Part shown: positions 353 through 19,357 of the stretch, one piece after another
Position numbering within the stretch: the stretch's first letter is position 1
How the letters are laid out: each line of letters begins with the position of its first letter
DNA from: Minisyncoccota bacterium
GTDB taxonomy: Bacteria; Patescibacteriota; Minisyncoccia; UBA6257; 2-01-FULL-56-20
Length of the DNA stretch: 36,742 bases
Assembly (NCBI GenBank): GCA_025449695.1
Contig: JANWIW010000008.1
Location: forward strand, 1 to 36,742
Reading direction: 5' to 3'
Position numbers and translations under genes: made by a program
The notes under the pieces: model-generated
Told to the model about the DNA's origin: nothing
What the model saw: only the letters and a program-made list of their open reading frames with translations
Databases searched by the model: none

Positions 353-442
353 CTGTCATCCTGACTCCGCACTTGATGCGGAGGAGTGATCCCGGACAAC
401 GTGCACGCACATCGGGGTCCTTCGCTTCGCTCAGGATGACAG
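353..442. repeat. Palindromic element, TGTCATCC family, between the two gmd genes
   Basis: Outer arms are perfect: CTGTCATCCTGA at 353-364 and TCAGGATGACAG at 431-442. Inside is a smaller hairpin, CCGCA(CTTGA)TGCGG. The right arm supplies the last codons and the TGA stop of the upstream gmd2 gene (residues LSS then stop). Related elements occur at 6741-6975, 15378-15716, 18543-18630, 21642-21747 and probably 32699-32830. Confidence 0.8.
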
Positions 443-3475: not shown

Positions 3476-3950
3476 AGTGAGTAGGTTGTAGTGAGTAGTG
3501 AGTAAGGGGCGGTCACTCCAACTTCCGGATCAATACATTGAGCATTTTCATCACTTCCCCGAGCAATGCATCCATCTTAGCAAATTGCACATCTTTACCA
3601 AAGGGCAGCCGTTCCGCAATGGTGGCCTGGGTTTCTAGCTCTGCGCCGGAACCAAATGCCTCGCAAAGATATTTGCGAAAATCTTTCCGAGAATTCCTCC
3701 TGCTTCCCTCGGCGATATTCGAAGCTATCGAAACAACGGCTCTTCTCATTTGCGAGACCAGACCGTAGGTTTCGGAACGAGGAAACCGTTCTGTAACCGC
3801 ATATACTTCTTGCGCTAATTCAATGGATCGTTGCCATACGACAAGATCCCGATATGAGGAAATGCCCACGGTCAAAGAATTTCACACTCTTTAGTTGAGC
3901 ACAAAAGACGAGGTTGTGGACTACTCACTACGCACTACAAACTATTCACT
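3476..3950. repeat. Inverted repeat pair flanking the first S23 gene
   Basis: The left arm at 3476-3504 and the right arm at 3922-3950 are inverted copies of a 29-bp sequence with 26 of 29 positions matching. The arms consist of the quasi-repetitive unit AGTGAGTAG. The gene at 3513-3875 is the only thing between them. The left arm begins 6 bases beyond the start codon of the ligase gene. Confidence 0.85.
3513..3875 (-). CDS. Four helix bundle protein, S23 / 23S rRNA intervening-sequence protein family
   Basis: A 120-residue protein with the family signature: SYRDLVVWQRSIELAQEVY near the N-terminus, then FPRSETYGLVSQMRRA, SIASNIAEGSRR, and FGSGAELETQ. The family (PF05635) was first seen as the ORF inside 23S rRNA intervening sequences and forms a four-helix bundle; its biochemical role is not established. 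Here it is not inside rRNA but lies between the glycan operon and rny, enclosed by a 29-bp imperfect inverted repeat. Start chosen as the first ATG giving the usual short leader before SYRDL; a start a few codons on is possible. No convincing Shine-Dalgarno site. Confidence 0.85.
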   Translation of the reverse strand: MTVGISSYRDLVVWQRSIELAQEVYAVTERFPRSETYGLVSQMRRAVVSIASNIAEGSRRNSRKDFRKYLCEAFGSGAELETQATIAERLPFGKDVQFAKMDALLGEVMKMLNVLIRKLE

Positions 3951-6998: not shown

Positions 6999-8528
6999 AT
7001 GAAACGTACCGTGGTGCTCGTCGTCCTGGACGGCTGGGGTATTGGCCGCGACGACGAATCGAACCCCATCCATATGGTCCATCCTCCGACACTGGAGCGG
7101 CTGGCCGCGGAGTATCCCATGACCTCGCTCCAGGCATCGGGCATCGCCGTGGGACTGCCCTGGGGAGAGGTGGGTAATTCCGAGGTGGGCCACCTCACCC
7201 TGGGCGCGGGCAAGGTCCTCTACCAGTACTATCCGAAGATAAGCCTCGCCATCCGGGACCGCACGTTCTTTGAGAACGCCGCGCTTCTCGCGGCCTTCGC
7301 GCACGCGAAGAAGAACAACTCCGCCGTGAACCTGGTGGGACTTTTGAGCAAGGGCAACGTGCATGCATCCCTGGAGCACGTGGAGGCGCTCCTCAAGATG
7401 GCCGGCGAGCAGGGGGTGACCGACGTGAAGCTCCATCTTTTTGCGGACGGGAAAGACACCCCGCCCAAGTCTTTGGAGCGTTTTCTTGAACTCCTGCCGC
7501 GCGACAAGGTTGCGACGCTCGCCGGGCGGTACTACGCCATGGACCGGGAAGGGAACTGGGGCCTGACCCAGGAGACCTATAACCTGCTCACCGAGGACGG
7601 GCCCGCCGCGCCCGGCCTCGCGGCCGTCATCCAGGCCTGTTATGCCAAGGGTTTGAGCGAGGAATTCCTGCCGCCGACGCGGGTGGCCGCCGGAAAACAG
7701 ATCGCCGACGGCGACGCGCTCATCTTTTTCAACTATCGCGAGGATTCCATCCGCCAGCTCGCGGAAGCCTTCATCGCCAAGGAATTCGACAAGTTCCCGC
7801 GAGCATCCCTGCCGAACCTCTTCACCGTGACCATGACCCATTATAAGGAGGGATTTGAGGCGCCGGCGGCGTTTCCGGCGGACGTGGTGAAGAACCCTTT
7901 GGGCAAGGTGATCGCGGACCAGGGGCTCGTCCAGCTGCGCCTCGCGGAGACCTACAAGTACGCGCACGTGACTTACTTTTTCAATGGTTACATCGAGGAG
8001 AAATTCCAGAACGAGTACCGCGTGGTGATCCCCTCCGAGCCCATCCCCCATCCGGACGAGCGGCCGGCAATGATGGCAACGGCAATCACCGACCGCCTGG
8101 TCGCCGCCATCGAAGAGCGCGCGTACAGCTTCATATTGGTGAATTATGCGAACGGCGACACCGTCGCTCATACGGGCAACTACAAGGCCGCCGAGGAAAC
8201 GGTCAAGGTGATCGACCGGGAGCTGAGCCGGGTCGTTGCCGCGGTGGAGGCGACCGGGACCGTCCTCCTTATTACTTCCGATCACGGCAACGTGGAGGAG
8301 CTCCTGAATCCCATGACCGGCGAGCCGGAGACGCAGCATGACCCGAGTCCCGTGCCTTTCCACCTGATCGCTCCGGAACTCCGGGGTCGCCGTTTCGGCA
8401 ACTGGCCGCACGTGCGCGAGGAAACGGGCGGCATCCTTTCCGATGTCGCGCCGACTATCCTTGAACTCATGGGGATCCAGAAGCCGGAAGACATGACCGG
8501 CGAGAGCCTGCTGAAGGAACTTGTATAG
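6999..8528 (+). CDS. gpmI: 2,3-bisphosphoglycerate-independent phosphoglycerate mutase
   Basis: The 509-residue length is typical of iPGM. The N-terminus VVLVVLDGWGIG carries a metal-binding Asp; GEVGNSEVGH contains the catalytic Ser (Ser61); YAMDREGNW, FFNYREDSIRQL, NYANGDTVAHTG and ITSDHGNVEEL carry the remaining metal-binding Asp/His residues. It interconverts 3- and 2-phosphoglycerate in lower glycolysis in the cytoplasm, Mn-dependent. No Shine-Dalgarno site is visible, but TATAAT stands seven bases before the ATG, so the mRNA may be leaderless. The gene sits between repeat-rich spacers and is followed by a semi-palindromic CTAGATT/AATCTGG spacer that begins at its stop codon. Confidence 0.97.
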   Translation: MKRTVVLVVLDGWGIGRDDESNPIHMVHPPTLERLAAEYPMTSLQASGIAVGLPWGEVGNSEVGHLTLGAGKVLYQYYPKISLAIRDRTFFENAALLAAFAHAKKNNSAVNLVGLLSKGNVHASLEHVEALLKMAGEQGVTDVKLHLFADGKDTPPKSLERFLELLPRDKVATLAGRYYAMDREGNWGLTQETYNLLTEDGPAAPGLAAVIQACYAKGLSEEFLPPTRVAAGKQIADGDALIFFNYREDSIRQLAEAFIAKEFDKFPRASLPNLFTVTMTHYKEGFEAPAAFPADVVKNPLGKVIADQGLVQLRLAETYKYAHVTYFFNGYIEEKFQNEYRVVIPSEPIPHPDERPAMMATAITDRLVAAIEERAYSFILVNYANGDTVAHTGNYKAAEETVKVIDRELSRVVAAVEATGTVLLITSDHGNVEELLNPMTGEPETQHDPSPVPFHLIAPELRGRRFGNWPHVREETGGILSDVAPTILELMGIQKPEDMTGESLLKELV

Positions 8529-8586
8529 AATCTGGAAACTGGAATCTGGACAATCCCTAGATTCTAGATTCTAGTTACCAGATTCT
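8527..8586. repeat. Imperfect inverted repeat of the AATCTGG/CTAGATT type
   Basis: The first 23 bases (AGAATCTGGAAACTGGAATC and on) pair with the last 23 bases with about three mismatches. It fills the spacer between gpmI and the PF04020 gene. The same motif family occurs at 11592-11668 and inside ileS at 16318-16349. It could act as a transcript-stabilising or terminating hairpin. Confidence 0.7.
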
Positions 8587-8599
8587 GTATGCTTATTCC

Positions 8600-11591: not shown

Positions 11592-11668
11592 AGAATCTAG
11601 TATCTGGAATTTAGAATCTGGCTGTCACCTTCCGCAACGCAGATTCTAGGTTCTAAATTCCAGATTCT
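11592..11668. repeat. Imperfect inverted repeat of the AATCTGG/CTAGATT type downstream of tRNA-Leu
   Basis: The first 29 and last 29 bases are inverted copies with about 23 of 29 matching; both halves are built from AGAATCTGG and AATTTAG motifs also found at 8527-8586. It begins seven bases after the tRNA. Confidence 0.65.
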
Positions 11669-13546: not shown

Positions 13547-13570
13547 GACTAGCATAGGGTATAGGGTATT

Positions 13571-14039
13571 AGGGTGTAGGGTTTCGGGTATTGGGTTTGA
13601 CAATCCACAGCCCTCTGGCTGTGCGAATGGAATGGCAAAGCTTAGGATGCGTAAGTGCTGACTTCCTATCGCGAACTACTCGTCTGGCAAAGAGGCATCG
13701 AGCTTGTTTCTCGGGTGTACGAGTTAACCCAACAGTTCCCGAAGACAGAACTCTATGGCCTAACAAGTCAAATGCGCCGGGCTGCAATATCCATACCGGC
13801 GAACATCGCTGAGGGTTACTCGCGCAGGTATCGTGCGGAGTATTTACAGTTCCTTCGGATCGCTTTCGGCTCCGGGGCCGAGCTTGAGACCCATCTTGCA
13901 ATAGCAGAGAAACTTGGCTTTACTTCCATAGAGACATCCGGGCCGGTTTTGAAATTGTTAACCGATGTCCTAAAATTACTGAACCGCCTCATGCAGTCTC
14001 TGGCCAGCCCTAAACCCAATACCCGAAACCCCACACCCT
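13571..14039. repeat. Inverted repeat pair flanking the second S23 gene
   Basis: The arm at 13571-13598 and the arm at 14012-14039 are inverted copies over 28 bp with a single mismatch; the core is GGGTTTCGGGTATTGGGTTT. The left arm continues outward as TAGGGTATAGGGTATTAGGG. The right arm encodes the C-terminal residues PNTRNPTP and abuts the stop codon of the S23 gene; trpS begins four bases later. Confidence 0.9.
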
Positions 14040-14041
14040 GA
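13655..14041 (+). CDS. Four helix bundle protein, S23 / 23S rRNA intervening-sequence protein family
   Basis: A 128-residue protein with the family signature SYRELLVWQRGIELVSRVYEL, FPKTELYGLTSQMRRA, SIPANIAEGYSRR and FGSGAELETHLAIAEKL; clearly related to the S23 protein at 3513. Function of the family is not established. The best start is GTG at 13655, three codons before SYREL; no ATG is available in frame. The last residues, PKPNTRNPTP, are encoded by the right arm of the flanking inverted repeat and are not part of the conserved family fold. Like the first copy it sits next to a major RNase gene, here rnj. Confidence 0.83.
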   Translation: MLTSYRELLVWQRGIELVSRVYELTQQFPKTELYGLTSQMRRAAISIPANIAEGYSRRYRAEYLQFLRIAFGSGAELETHLAIAEKLGFTSIETSGPVLKLLTDVLKLLNRLMQSLASPKPNTRNPTP

Positions 14042-14044
14042 TTC

Positions 14045-15377: not shown

Positions 15378-15716
15378 TGTCATCCCGAGCAGCGGCGAGG
15401 GACCTCTATGCCATATTATTGCTATATCATGACCAACAAGCTGCGGACCGTGCTGTATGCGGGAGTGACCGGTGATATGCAAACACGGCTAGCTGAGCAT
15501 GTTTCGAAGTTCAATAAGGACAGCTTCACCGCCAATTACAACGTGAACCGCCTGGTGTGGTCTGAAAGCTTTCAGAGGGTAGAAGATGCCATTGCGATGG
15601 AGAAGCGGATCAAAGGGTGGAGTCGGGCAAAGAAGCTGGAGCTTACACAAAGCAGGAACCCACGGTTCCAAGTCCTGAACTAGCTCTGGGGTCCCTCGCC
15701 TTCGCTCGGGATGACA
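15378..15716. repeat. TGTCATCCCGAG inverted-repeat arms enclosing a GIY-YIG gene
   Basis: The left arm is 15378-15407 and the right arm 15685-15716. Both read outward-in as TGTCATCCCGAGC, three variable bases, GGCGAGGGACC; 24 of the first 27 positions match. The left arm ends at the base before the ATG of the GIY-YIG gene and the right arm starts one base after its stop, so the gene exactly fills the element. Direct repeats of target DNA were not found. Confidence 0.85.
15408..15683 (+). CDS. GIY-YIG nuclease superfamily protein
   Basis: A 91-residue single-domain protein. The signature is YYCYIMTN followed by VLYAGVTGDMQTRLAEH (a GIY-x-YIG variant, with Y..Y and YAGVT), then the catalytic-type Arg in TRLAEH and the Glu in AIAMEKRIKGWSRAKKLELI-like helix (EDAIAMEKRIKGW). 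The usual GIY-YIG mini-proteins (UPF0213-like) of this length are thought to be DNA endonucleases, but their substrates are unknown. The gene is bounded on both sides, with no spare sequence, by inverted arms of the TGTCATCCCGAG repeat. No Shine-Dalgarno site: the arm itself occupies the upstream position. Confidence 0.87.
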   Translation: MPYYCYIMTNKLRTVLYAGVTGDMQTRLAEHVSKFNKDSFTANYNVNRLVWSESFQRVEDAIAMEKRIKGWSRAKKLELTQSRNPRFQVLN

Positions 15717-15736: not shown

Positions 15737-18700
15737 CTAAACCTTCACGAGCGCGATCTTCGCGCGGCCCTCGAAATCCCCCGCCTGCACCAAGGCTTCG
15801 GCGGGCGCGGTCGCCTTCTCGATCTTGGAGATATAGGTTTTCTTCGCGTCGAACAAATTGAACGCCTGTTCTATCTCCGCATCGGCGGTCTCATAGCGCA
15901 ACGCCGCCATCTCGCCCACTTTGAAACCCTGCGCCTTGCGCATTCCCTGTACGAAACGCTCCAAGCCGCGGGTCAAGCCTTCGAGCTTCAGTTCGGGGGT
16001 CAGTTCCGTATCGAGCTTGGCGATGGGAACATCGCCCGTCATTTTAAAGATGCCTGCCTTTTTGACATTGAGCTCGTCGCACAGGATACGGGTCAGTTCG
16101 GGGTCCAGCTTCGCATCTTCCGTCCCCATCTCGATGGTGACGCCGGCGAGGGGCTGACGAACTGGCAGGTTCAAAGCCTTGCGCGCCGCCAAACCCAAGC
16201 TGGCTGCCTCGCGCACGGTACGCATCTGCTTCAAAAGCTCCTGTTCTTTCTCCGTGAGAGCCTGCTTCTCCGGCCAGCTTTGCAGATGCACGCTCTCGAC
16301 CTTCTTTGTTCCGCCTTCCAGATTCCAGATTCCAGATTCCAGATTCTGGTATATCGCCTCCGCAAGGTGCGGCATAACCGGAGCGATGACCTTGGAAACG
16401 GTGATTAAAGTTTCGCGGAACGCGGGATAGAACCCGGCATCTTCCCGGCCGCGCGAGCGGCGCAAGTACCAGGTGGAAAGGTCGTCAATGAAATTCTCCA
16501 TGGAGCGCGTCGCATGCACGGTGTCATAGCTGTCCAGGTGATCGGTCACCTCGTTGACCAATTCCTTGGTGCGCGCGGTGATCCAGCGATCCAAAGCAAA
16601 GCCATGCTTTGGATCGCTGTCCCGCGTAGCTTTAGCGAAGTGGGACTCGTCACTTTTCTCTTGCGGCGCACCCGCCTTCGCTAAAGCTTCGGCGGGCAAG
16701 TAAGTAACATAGTACTGGTACACGTTCCAGAGGATCATGACCACCTTGCGATAGACGTTCCCGAGGTCTTTCTCGCTGAAGTTCACATTGTCGCCCTGCA
16801 TCACGACCGAGTTCATGAGATAGAAGCGCAGGCTGTCCACGCCATACTTGCCGATGGTAAGCCACGGGTCCGGAAAGTTGTTCTTGGACTTGGACATCTT
16901 GCTGCCGTCCTCGGCAAGGATGTTGCCCGTCGTGACCACGTTCTCGAAGGGAGCGCGGTCGAAGATCACTTGCGAGATCACATGCATCACATAGAACCAG
17001 GCGCGGGTCTGGGCGATATACTCGGCCACGAATTGTGCTGGGAAGCGGCTCTCAAATAATTCCTTGTTTTGGAAGGGATAGTGATACTCGGCGAAGGGCA
17101 TGGAACCAGCCTCCACCCATGAGTCGAAGATCTCCGGCGTGCGCCGCATCTTGCCGCCGCACTCGCAGGCGAGAATCACCTCGTCTATGTAGGGGCGGTG
17201 GAGATCGGTCAAGCCCGTCACCACCTCGCGCGGCGTCGCGTAGTCCGGCTCTACCAGGATGTCCTCTCCGAGCGCTTCCATGACGAGCCAGAGCGGATCG
17301 CCGTGACTCACGATGACGATGCTCTTGCCGGGGTGTTTGGCGGTCAGCTCGTTCACGATTTCCACCATGCGACTGCGGATGCCGGTCCAGGTCTCGCCCC
17401 CCTCCGGAGCTATCTTCCACCATCCCGCCGCAGGACGAGACTTGTCAAAATCCTTCTCTGATTTCCCGTTCCAGATCCCCACATTGAACTCCCGGAGGCG
17501 GGGGTCGGTCACGACCGGCACGCCGGTTGCCTCGGCCACGATCTCCGCGGTTTCCCTGGTGCGGAGGAGATCGGAGGAGAAAATCAGGTCCACGCCCTTC
17601 GCTTTCAGGGCTTCCGCCGCGGCGCGCGCCCCTTCTTTGCCCTTCTCCGTGAGGTGGTACACGCCCGGCTCCGGGTAAGCGCTGATAATATCCTCCACGT
17701 TCTGTTCTGCCTCGCCGTGCCGCATGAAATGGAACGTCGTGGGCGCGAGGCCGAGATCGGCGACGCTGCCTGCCACTTTCTGCCTGCCGCAATCCCCGCA
17801 TTTCCACACGGGGATGGGATTCCCCCAGTAGCGATTGCGGGAGATGTTCCAGTCCGGCGCGGCCTCCACCGACTTCTCGTAACGGCCGTGCTTCAGATGG
17901 CCGGGAAACCAGTTGATCTGCCCGGCATTAGTGCGCAGGAGATCGGGCTTTATCTTCTGCACATTGATGAACCAGGCCGGGATCGCATTGTAGTAGAGGG
18001 CGGTACCGCAGCGCCAGCAGTGCGGATAAGAGTGGGTATGCATGGTCCGCTTGAGGAGCAGGCCGCGCTGTTCCAGGTCCTCCTTGATAGCCTTCTCGGA
18101 ATGTTTGAAATACTGCCCGCGGATGAGTTCCGGCGCTTCCATGTTGAATTTCCCTTTCTCGTCGAGAAGCGGCACGATCGGCAATCCCTCCCGCAGGCCC
18201 AGCTGGTAATCGTCCTCGCCGTATACGACTGCGGTGTGCACAATGCCGGTGCCCTCCTCAGTGGTCACGAAATCGGCCGTATAGACCTTGAACGCCCTCT
18301 CACTCCTCAGTGCCGGGATATCGAAGAGAGGCTCGTAGGCCAGACCGGCCAGGTCCTTGCCCTTGGACTCCGAAAGTATCTCGTATCCTTCCGGCGCGAC
18401 CTTCGCCACCAGCTCCTTCGCGAGGACGTATGTTTCTCCGCCGATCTTTGCCTTCACGTAATCGATCTCGGCGCCCACCGCGAGGGCGACGTTCCCCGGC
18501 AGCGTCCAGGGCGTGGTGGTCCACGCCAGGAGATACACATTGCTGTCATCCTGAGCCCCATACTTCATACGGGGCGAAGGACCTTCTCCCTTTGAAACAG
18601 AAGGTTCTTCGCCGGCGCTCAGAATGACAGAGGGAGGGGTGCTTATTCTGAATTTTACATACACCGACTCCTCGCTCACGTCCTTGTAGCTGTTGTCCAT

Positions 18701-19357
18701 CGCCACCTCGAAGTTCGAGACTGGCGTCTCGCACCGGGGGCAATAGAGCAAGACCTTGCGGCCCTCGTATACGAGGCCTTTGTCGTATACCTGTTTGAAC
18801 GCCCACCAGACCGACTCCATGAAGGTGCGGTCCATGGTCTTGTAGGAATTCTCGAACTCGGTCCAGCGCCCCATGCGGCGAACCATCTTGGCCCATTCGT
18901 CCACGAACTGGAGCACCATGGAGCGGCAGGTCTCGTTGAACCGCTGGATGCCGATCTCTTCGATCTGCTTTTTGCCGGAGATGCCGAGTTTGCGCTCCAC
19001 GATCTCCTCGATCGGCAATCCGTGGCAATCCCAGCCCCAGCGGCGGCGGACGAACCGCCCGTGCATCGTCTGATAGCGCGGTATGAGATCTTTAATAGTG
19101 GAAGCGAGAATGTGTCCGTAATGCGGAATGCCCGTCGCGAACGGCGGTCCGTCGTAGAACGTGAAGGGCTTGCCATCCTTGGTACGCTCCAGGGATTTTG
19201 CGAACGTGGTGTCCTTTTCCCAGAATTCGATAACCCTCTCCTCAAGCTCGGGGATGGACAGCGTGTCGTCAAAGGGCTTTCCTGCGGCCGGCTTTTCGAA
19301 TCCCTCGAGCATGTCCCTCAAAGTACCAGAAAGCCAAGGAAAATCAAAGGCGCCCAT
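15737..19357 (-). CDS. ileS: Isoleucyl-tRNA synthetase with embedded histidine phosphatase domain
   Basis: About 1206 residues from the ATG at 19357; ATG at 19312 (MLEGFEKP) is an alternative. Longer frames to 19516 overlap the promoter and start of the divergent gene and were rejected. Class I core: HYGH at 79-82, editing domain beginning LLAWTTTPWTLPGN (near 275), NRYWGNPIPVW, KMSKS near 820, and a C-terminal anticodon-binding region. Zinc-type CxxC pairs occur at CPRC, CGDC and CECG. Between GSVADLGL and VVTGLTDLHRPYIDEV, residues about 540-701 form a complete histidine phosphatase domain: RHG in FMRHGEAEQN, Arg in SSDLLRTRETAE, Glu in LREFNVGIWNGK and His in IVSHGDPLW, so all four catalytic residues are kept. 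Three further insertions come from repeats: about 243-272, 888-925 and 1003-1014. The core charges tRNA-Ile; the role of the phosphatase domain is unknown. Confidence 0.93.
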   Translation of the reverse strand: MGAFDFPWLSGTLRDMLEGFEKPAAGKPFDDTLSIPELEERVIEFWEKDTTFAKSLERTKDGKPFTFYDGPPFATGIPHYGHILASTIKDLIPRYQTMHGRFVRRRWGWDCHGLPIEEIVERKLGISGKKQIEEIGIQRFNETCRSMVLQFVDEWAKMVRRMGRWTEFENSYKTMDRTFMESVWWAFKQVYDKGLVYEGRKVLLYCPRCETPVSNFEVAMDNSYKDVSEESVYVKFRISTPPSVILSAGEEPSVSKGEGPSPRMKYGAQDDSNVYLLAWTTTPWTLPGNVALAVGAEIDYVKAKIGGETYVLAKELVAKVAPEGYEILSESKGKDLAGLAYEPLFDIPALRSERAFKVYTADFVTTEEGTGIVHTAVVYGEDDYQLGLREGLPIVPLLDEKGKFNMEAPELIRGQYFKHSEKAIKEDLEQRGLLLKRTMHTHSYPHCWRCGTALYYNAIPAWFINVQKIKPDLLRTNAGQINWFPGHLKHGRYEKSVEAAPDWNISRNRYWGNPIPVWKCGDCGRQKVAGSVADLGLAPTTFHFMRHGEAEQNVEDIISAYPEPGVYHLTEKGKEGARAAAEALKAKGVDLIFSSDLLRTRETAEIVAEATGVPVVTDPRLREFNVGIWNGKSEKDFDKSRPAAGWWKIAPEGGETWTGIRSRMVEIVNELTAKHPGKSIVIVSHGDPLWLVMEALGEDILVEPDYATPREVVTGLTDLHRPYIDEVILACECGGKMRRTPEIFDSWVEAGSMPFAEYHYPFQNKELFESRFPAQFVAEYIAQTRAWFYVMHVISQVIFDRAPFENVVTTGNILAEDGSKMSKSKNNFPDPWLTIGKYGVDSLRFYLMNSVVMQGDNVNFSEKDLGNVYRKVVMILWNVYQYYVTYLPAEALAKAGAPQEKSDESHFAKATRDSDPKHGFALDRWITARTKELVNEVTDHLDSYDTVHATRSMENFIDDLSTWYLRRSRGREDAGFYPAFRETLITVSKVIAPVMPHLAEAIYQNLESGIWNLEGGTKKVESVHLQSWPEKQALTEKEQELLKQMRTVREAASLGLAARKALNLPVRQPLAGVTIEMGTEDAKLDPELTRILCDELNVKKAGIFKMTGDVPIAKLDTELTPELKLEGLTRGLERFVQGMRKAQGFKVGEMAALRYETADAEIEQAFNLFDAKKTYISKIEKATAPAEALVQAGDFEGRAKIALVKV
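16318..16349. repeat. Tandem CCAGATT heptamers inside ileS
   Basis: Four tandem copies of CCAGATT at 16318-16345 followed by CTGG. On the ileS strand they encode NLESGIWNLEGG. The same motif builds the intergenic inverted repeats at 8527-8586 and 11592-11668. Confidence 0.85.
16585..16696. repeat. Palindromic repeat cluster inside ileS (AGCGATCCAAAGC hairpin and neighbours)
   Basis: A perfect 13-bp hairpin, AGCGATCCAAAGC (16585-16597) with GCTTTGGATCGCT (16606-16618), is followed by GTAGCTTTAGCGAAGTGGGA (near 16626) and by CCCGCCTTCGCTAAAGCTTC with GGCGGG (16671-16696). On the ileS strand the cluster encodes SHFAKATRDSDPKHGFALDR and neighbours, a low-conservation stretch before the anticodon-binding part. 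Confidence 0.8.
18543..18630. repeat. TGTCATCC-family palindromic element inserted in frame in ileS
   Basis: The outer arms CTGTCATCCTGAGC (18543-18556) and GCTCAGAATGACAG (18617-18630) match 13 of 14. The inner arms GGCGAAGGACCTTCT and AGAAGGTTCTTCGCC match 14 of 15. On the ileS strand the element adds about 30 residues (SVILSAGEEPSVSKGEG and on) between YVKF and the editing-domain motif, leaving the frame intact. Confidence 0.88.

Follow-up and report, generated by a model that had tools for sequence, protein, structure and literature searches.

Repeat segments within ileS

Are the repeat-like segments inside the isoleucyl-tRNA synthetase gene (ileS) of a small Patescibacteria genome native parts of the enzyme, or are they copies of repeats that lie elsewhere in the same genome and are read through in frame? 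The gene is encoded on a stretch of 36,742 nucleotides (contig JANWIW010000008.1 of GCA_025449695.1, Minisyncoccota bacterium), here called the window, which belongs to a draft genome of 983 kb in 37 contigs with an estimated completeness of 92.7%. A sequence-only reading of the window had described three repeat-derived segments in ileS, read through in frame between conserved blocks of the enzyme (IleRS). We found all three at the places first described, within the open frame of one IleRS in which the HIGH-like PHYGH, the KMSKS and the editing WTTTPWT motifs are all present (Table 1). Thus the observation is confirmed, while its interpretation is supported in part. Judged from alignments and repeat counts, the inserts are dispersed repeats of this genome that are translated in frame in poorly conserved loops and are absent from the loops of relatives. 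We consider it probable that such repeats land in ileS and are tolerated in frame in variable loops, and that the heptamer arrays among them are tied to S23 elements, that is, to open reading frames (ORFs) of family PF05635 (also named IVP, for intervening sequence protein) and their flanks.

Insert 1 lies in the loop directly ahead of WTTTPWTLP and consists of two TGTC-tagged repetitive extragenic palindromic (REP) sequences arranged head-to-head (TGTCATCCTGAG...CTCAGAATGACA), with the layout TGTCATCCTGAG, variable hairpin, CGAAGGACCTTC, followed by the mirror copy. Its predicted RNA fold of -50.1 kcal/mol (z -7.1) was equalled by none of 200 shuffles. The same holds for insert 2 (fold -67.3, z -7.9), a cluster of three hairpins in the linker leading to the anticodon-binding domain. 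Insert 3, a perfect period-7 run of 4.4 copies of CCAGATT, occupies a variable loop in the anticodon-binding region. We also detected a fourth, previously missed repeat piece of the CCCGCC hairpin family, whose fold is unremarkable (z -1.1).

The histidine phosphatase domain (His_Phos_1) inside IleRS had been counted as part of the same tendency. It is an old, family-wide insertion and a matter apart from the repeats. The domain is absent from the IleRS of one genome (G033, locus L019) and from several Doudnabacteria orthologues.

Insertions compared with the loops of relatives

We aligned ileS orthologues from 37 family genomes and 80 named loci, Liptonbacteria and Doudnabacteria included. 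The inserts are absent from them, and the flanking IleRS blocks are retained; the homologous loops are shorter and share no conserved, alignable residues with the inserts, also in unrelated orthologues such as the Thermus IleRS. The three loops are 38, 39 and 20 residues long here. Array-free orthologues have median lengths of 14, 20 and 12, so the net gain is about 24, 19 and 8 residues. The inserted lengths of about 30, 38 and 12 residues given earlier are spans, which differ from the net gain. In an AlphaFold2 model of IleRS (mean predicted local distance difference test, pLDDT, 84), internal values below 50 occur only at residues 300-324, 948-971 and 1063-1070, which are the three inserts; these low values are partly due to the lack of aligned relatives.

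Heptamer-bearing loops are just about 2-5 residues longer than array-free ones, and the arrays encode about 10 residues, so the arrays appear to replace loop sequence. Judged by these lengths, most of the native loop seems to be overwritten where a heptamer array is present; REPs and hairpins, by contrast, make the loop longer.

Repeat families of the genome

The genome was read as stretches around matches and as samples. The sample used for arrays and hairpins comprised 312 kb, of which 252 kb were picked without regard to heptamers and 60 kb were picked at AATCTGG sites. Genes were called with a simple home-made scorer, and the score thresholds were chosen by us. The REP motif TGTCATCCNNAG has 99 matches in the genome (0.98 Mb) and none when the motif is read backwards. 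We recovered 98 of these ends in the fetched stretches: 86 are intergenic, 7 lie at gene ends and 5 inside ORFs, ileS and uvrC included. The terminal tag TGTCAT[CT]C stands at the ends of about 100 REP copies, most of which have the form ATCCTGAG-[variable hairpin]-CGAAGGACC with a variable middle and often A.C as the first pair; many form inverted pairs of 48-140 bp. TGTCATCCTGAG was matched 55 times in this genome and 0-3 times per relative. For the heptamer, (AATCTGG)3 with one mismatch gave 45 matches here compared with a single one in 37 family genomes; the same exact heptamer occurs at about 30 sites, and another family member has its own unit, AAGTATC. By these counts, both the REP and the heptamer have expanded in this genome alone.

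The CCCGCC...GGCGGG hairpin of insert 2 is a member of a dispersed family, to which both neighbours of the hairpin with perfect 13-bp arms belong; no other copy of the 13-bp-arm hairpin itself was found in the 312-kb sample. The claim that the ileS segments match repeats elsewhere stands for the REP, the heptamer and two hairpins, and finds no support in that sample for the one with 13-bp arms.

Strong arrays in the 252-kb sample have period 7 (n = 18) or 14 (n = 13) and no other period from 2 to 17, and 150 kb of E. coli, used as a control, contained no array of any period. In the 312-kb sample, 16 of 38 arrays lie inside ORFs. Translation of the CCAGATT-type arrays follows two phases that recur, giving PDSRFQIPDS and NLESGIWNLE. 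A unit of 7 nt is not divisible by 3, so an array is read in all its phases, and only stop-free heptamers can survive inside genes.

A scan of the sampled genome for in-frame coding copies identified repeats in uvrC, mnmA, tsaD, tatD, glyS, valS and DHFR besides ileS. Heptamers are read through in UvrC, TatD, GlyRS, TsaD, MnmA (which has two arrays) and a pair of membrane proteins of glycosyltransferase type, while ValRS, DHFR and a protein of the ribulose-phosphate epimerase family contain in-frame relatives of the hairpins. The REP palindrome is in frame in ileS and uvrC, both probably functional given their intact domains. A class-V aminotransferase gene (L146, 1763-3091) was not counted as a read-through success because one in-frame TAG stands beside an array; it carries several AATCTGG-type arrays and one REP with the frame otherwise kept, and may be a failed insertion or a pseudogene. 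The GlyRS ORF (L133, 2182-3702) has an N-terminal extension ahead of the likelier start MTQPSLMEK that resembles another dispersed repeat in frame (SLPRKRESG...LRGDD).

We detected no gene for Y1_Tnp, the REP-associated tyrosine transposase (RAYT), in this genome at its estimated completeness, and RAYT was rejected as the REP mobiliser for that reason; Y1_Tnp was found in 5 of 38 family genomes. A 91-residue GIY-YIG ORF (window 15408-15683) is tightly bracketed by inverted REPs in a 339-bp unit (15378-15716), and a second GIY-YIG copy (G000:C10:3200-3418) is bracketed likewise. The bracketing pair was not found at the other nine of the 11 small GIY-YIG ORFs in the genome, and GIY-YIG was set aside as mobiliser since only these two carry it. 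The seven REP ends at genes lie at their 3' ends (e.g. window 430-441), where GGATGACA can provide a TGA stop codon. The genome also has a MITE-like (miniature inverted-repeat transposable element) family with about 15 members, each 174-181 bp long between inverted TGTCATCCCGAG ends of REP type; most have a conserved AGCCGGCTT core, and no ORF was seen.

Period-7 arrays at the ends of S23 elements

Two PF05635 ORFs are encoded in the window and two more in the sampled genome, and all four are flanked by inverted period-7 arrays. In one of the latter elements (L161) the bracketing unit is AATCTGG, the heptamer of ileS, and the two arms pair into a 32-bp stem that encloses the gene. No rRNA was detected in the window (Rfam), and the other S23 copies examined lie between protein genes. 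We found no further S23 ORF in 400 kb from five relatives and none in annotated phages. A wider set comprised 60 distinct loci from plasmids (mostly Nostoc, Calothrix and Anabaena) and IMG/VR contigs (host unknown). The inverted match between the two flanks reached at least 14 in 45 of these loci, compared with one of 60 when flanks were mismatched. Upstream flanks with a period-7 signal number 38 and downstream ones 32, whereas unrelated periods gave 0-7, and period-7 coverage amounts to 19% and 9% in the 100 bp on either side of the ORF but only about 0-1% at 300-900 bp.

Of the 35 dispersed arrays in the sample of the genome itself, 28 correspond to a terminus of one of its own S23 elements, compared with 8 of 700 permuted units; in the part of the sample not chosen by heptamer the figure is, by our reading, about 12 of 18. 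These comparisons show that period-7 arrays mark both ends of S23 ORFs, inverted, in many bacteria, and that the ileS heptamer is one of the terminal arrays of this genome's own S23 elements. The link between heptamers and S23 appears unreported: a partial literature search, mostly without subscription papers, returned no paper joining S23/IVP to heptamers, or heptamers to the candidate phyla radiation (CPR) or Parcubacteria, although such a gap is weak evidence of novelty. S23 elements were also seen inside CRISPR operons of plasmids, in the cas6/cas4 gap in Pseudanabaena and Anabaena and in the cas10/cmr3 gap in Picosynechococcus (L270, L274 and L271).

Repeats in ileS across Patescibacteria

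Among 102 distinct Patescibacteria ileS genes, strong in-frame arrays have period 7 (n = 39), 14 (n = 26) or 8 (n = 1), with no other period from 4 to 15 represented, and codon shuffles of the same genes yielded no arrays. With a looser cut, 46 period-7 arrays were identified in 29 of the 102 genes. They occupy about a dozen loop regions, at the median 6th percentile of conservation (p 1.6e-10), and the same loop holds different heptamers. Counted by gene, period-7 arrays number 0 in 29 rpoB of the family (120 kb), 3 in 29 uvrC (39 kb) and 18 in 29 ileS (102 kb); one of the three uvrC arrays uses the same loop as the uvrC of our genome, with another heptamer. Palindromic inserts are present in the ileS of five further loci (L105, L083, L087, L073 and L032), and relatives of about 75% identity have the sites empty; the L105 insert is a repeat found elsewhere in the L105 genome. 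In these comparisons, read-through repeats are not peculiar to one gene or lineage, and the ileS of other Patescibacteria carry different repeats in the same loops. The earlier proposal that this lineage tolerates repeats in coding DNA agrees with several of its own genes, but the trait is not specific to it.

Origin and persistence of the inserts

In the explanation that we favour, repeats would land at random in the genome, or arrays would grow in place, and the copies that are stop-free, keep the frame and sit in length-tolerant surface loops would survive purifying selection, the remaining copies being lost or left intergenic. On this view the inserts would be passengers that the enzyme tolerates, making loops longer or taking their place without serving a function. 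The dispersed arrays may have spread from, or together with, S23 elements, each with its own heptamer, and the S23 protein would be expected to bind its own heptamer as DNA or RNA. Tentatively, and with more doubt than belief, we suggest that S23/IVP are widespread small mobile elements with inverted private 7-nt ends, whose protein may recognise its own heptamer and seed solo arrays genome-wide, overwriting loops in essential genes.

In-place replication slippage, with 7 nt as the favoured unit and no mobile element, could also account for the arrays if shared heptamers reflect local sequence bias, a possibility that we hold to be real although rather unlikely. Several genomes have heptamers as their most frequent long simple repeat, for which a polymerase-footprint explanation has been proposed (Mrazek 2007, as cited in PMC4679880), and the net length changes little in the ileS loops, UvrC and GlyRS; yet one exact heptamer recurs across this genome and almost never in its 37 relatives, and arrays peak sharply, in inverted orientation, at the two ends of S23 ORFs. 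That the inserts are functional, as RNA hairpins regulating ileS or as binding loops of the enzyme kept by selection, is improbable. The very stable mRNA hairpins and the reuse of the same loops in different lineages would agree with a function, but the sequences are unrelated from lineage to lineage and missing from most, the same repeats occur in unrelated genes and the segments are predicted to be disordered.

It is very improbable that the inserts are removed from the RNA by processing of the S23 stem type or skipped by the ribosome. Inserts 1 and 2 are long stems resembling RNase III substrates, and elements in 23S rRNA are excised as RNA without religation (PMC4990558), but all inserts are stop-free and frame-keeping, which would be needless if they were removed, and excision without ligation would break the mRNA. 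We give still less credence to native variable loops shaped by low-complexity drift: the loops of relatives do vary in length at the same places, but the 86 bp of insert 1 make up an entire REP pair from a family with 99 sites, insert 3 is built as a perfect array from a heptamer private to this genome, and no residues align. An assembly or binning artefact, conceivable in a draft of 37 contigs, is hardly credible given the same in-frame pattern in about 100 independent assemblies and the S23 arrangement on complete plasmids.

Several observations weigh against the explanation by landing repeats and S23 elements. Seven of the 35 arrays match no S23 terminus of the genome, 15 of the 60 S23 loci have no clear inverted flanks, and the ileS heptamer of G008 (AAGTATC) occurs about 490 bp from an S23 ORF whose adjoining array is merely similar. 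The arrays in UvrC and GlyRS domains bring no net length change relative to the Pfam profile, and this, like the small change in heptamer-bearing loops, agrees more readily with formation in place than with simple insertion. The closest ileS sequence shares about 60% identity, and the mobility of heptamer arrays, their entry into genes and the protein product of the inserts are inferences from sequence.

Palindromic repeats in frame have been described in Rickettsia and in some free-living bacteria. Here such repeats, and above all 7-nt arrays, lie inside core enzymes of tiny-genome bacteria, which means that they have outlasted genome reduction. Because S23 ORFs are bracketed by inverted heptamer arrays, two old puzzles become testable on existing genomes: where heptamer repeats come from and how rRNA intervening sequences move. 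If the S23 reading is true, it would jointly explain the movement of intervening sequences in 23S rRNA and the heptamers known from cyanobacteria, Xanthomonas and Patescibacteria.

Table 1. Repeats, elements and domains in the window, with related peptides and loci (residue numbers refer to the IleRS translation P0001)
Feature	Position	Strand	Remarks
ileS, isoleucyl-tRNA synthetase	15740..19357	-	class I motifs intact; internal His_Phos_1 domain
Insert 1, complete paired TGTC-tagged REP	18544..18629	-	86 bp; read as SVILSAGEEPSVSKGEGPSPRMKYGAQDDS, residues ~296-325
Histidine phosphatase domain inside IleRS	17270..17731	-	common to most family members
Insert 2, three-hairpin cluster	16583..16698	-	read as PAEALAKAGAPQEKSDESHFAKATRDSDPKHGFAL, residues ~941-977
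Hairpin CCCGCCTTCGCTAAAGCTTCGGCGGG of insert 2	16671..16696	-	dispersed family; relatives in frame in valS, DHFR and other genes
Hairpin with perfect 13-bp arms, insert 2	16586..16617	-	single copy in sample
Insert 3, heptamer array	16316..16346	-	(AATCTGG)4.4 on coding strand; read as NLESGIWNLE, residues 1057-1067
Fourth ileS repeat piece, CCCGCC hairpin family	15780..15805	-	near C-terminus (PAEALVQAG)
Predicted IleRS peptides of inserts			SGIWNLE, AEALAKAGAPQEK
S23/IVP element B	3476..3950	-	PF05635 ORF 3513-3875; inverted AGTGAGT heptamer arms 3476-3504, 3922-3950
S23/IVP element C	13554..14042	+	PF05635 ORF 13655-14041; inverted period-7 arms ~13554-13598, 14012-14042
Inverted pair of AGATTCT/CCAGATT-type heptamer arrays	8524..8589	.	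intergenic
Inverted pair of AGATTCT-type heptamer arrays	11592..11668	.	19 nt between arrays; intergenic
MITE-like family loci			L114, L115, L118, L122, L123, L124, L126, L129, L135, L141, L145, L146

Comparison with known systems

In-frame REPs in genes, uvr genes and tRNA synthetases included, are documented (PMC3733652). The likeness to Rickettsia palindromic elements (RPEs) drawn by the sequence-only reading fits the REP and the hairpins; the heptamer array is not palindromic and is another kind of repeat, tied to S23/IVP. Like RPEs and the GTAG/CGTC-tagged REPs (PMC3733652), the palindromes described here are dispersed and in frame in functional genes, among them repair genes and tRNA synthetases, so that the REP part of ileS is, by analogy, RPE-like and known in kind. 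The host is a member of the Patescibacteria and not of the Rickettsiales, and the likeness is drawn by behaviour, not by RPE-family sequence. With the CGTC/TGTC-tagged REPs (PMC3733652) our REP shares the TGTC tag, head-to-head dimers, a genome without a tyrosine transposase and ends that give neighbouring genes their stop codons. Their consensus (an 8-9 bp stem starting from A-T pairs, a 4-5 nt loop and a CCA tail) is matched only partly here in its stem and tail. Our REP also differs in having a longer, variable hairpin between conserved ends, and several unrelated repeat families occur in one gene. RAYT-mobilised REPs likewise occur as pairs dispersed between genes, but in genomes with a Y1_Tnp gene.

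Beggiatoaceae, cyanobacteria and Xanthomonas are documented carriers of heptamer repeats, which are mostly intergenic there and, when in ORFs, lie mostly at the gene ends or in hypothetical proteins (PMC4679880, PMC4692102). The known units include TAACTGA of Beggiatoaceae and cyanobacteria (PMC4679880) as well as GGGAATC of Xanthomonas and GGGGA(C/T)T of Nostoc (PMC4692102), and the study of the latter two reports no association with mobile elements (PMC4692102). The arrays described here resemble them in their period of 7, their 2-14 or more copies, their mostly intergenic position, the genome-specific unit and the frequent inverted pairs; they differ in that many lie inside conserved housekeeping proteins and coincide with the ends of S23 elements.

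Intervening sequences (IVSs) of 23S rRNA with an S23 ORF and terminal inverted repeats are documented, for example in Coxiella, and their origin and mobility have been described as unclear (PMC4990558). The S23 elements of our genome likewise have a PF05635 ORF within terminal inverted repeats that form a stem of about 28-32 bp, but they lie between protein genes and not in 23S rRNA, and their inverted repeats are period-7 arrays. Since they lie outside 23S rRNA, we describe them as having the same architecture as 23S IVSs without classing them as such.

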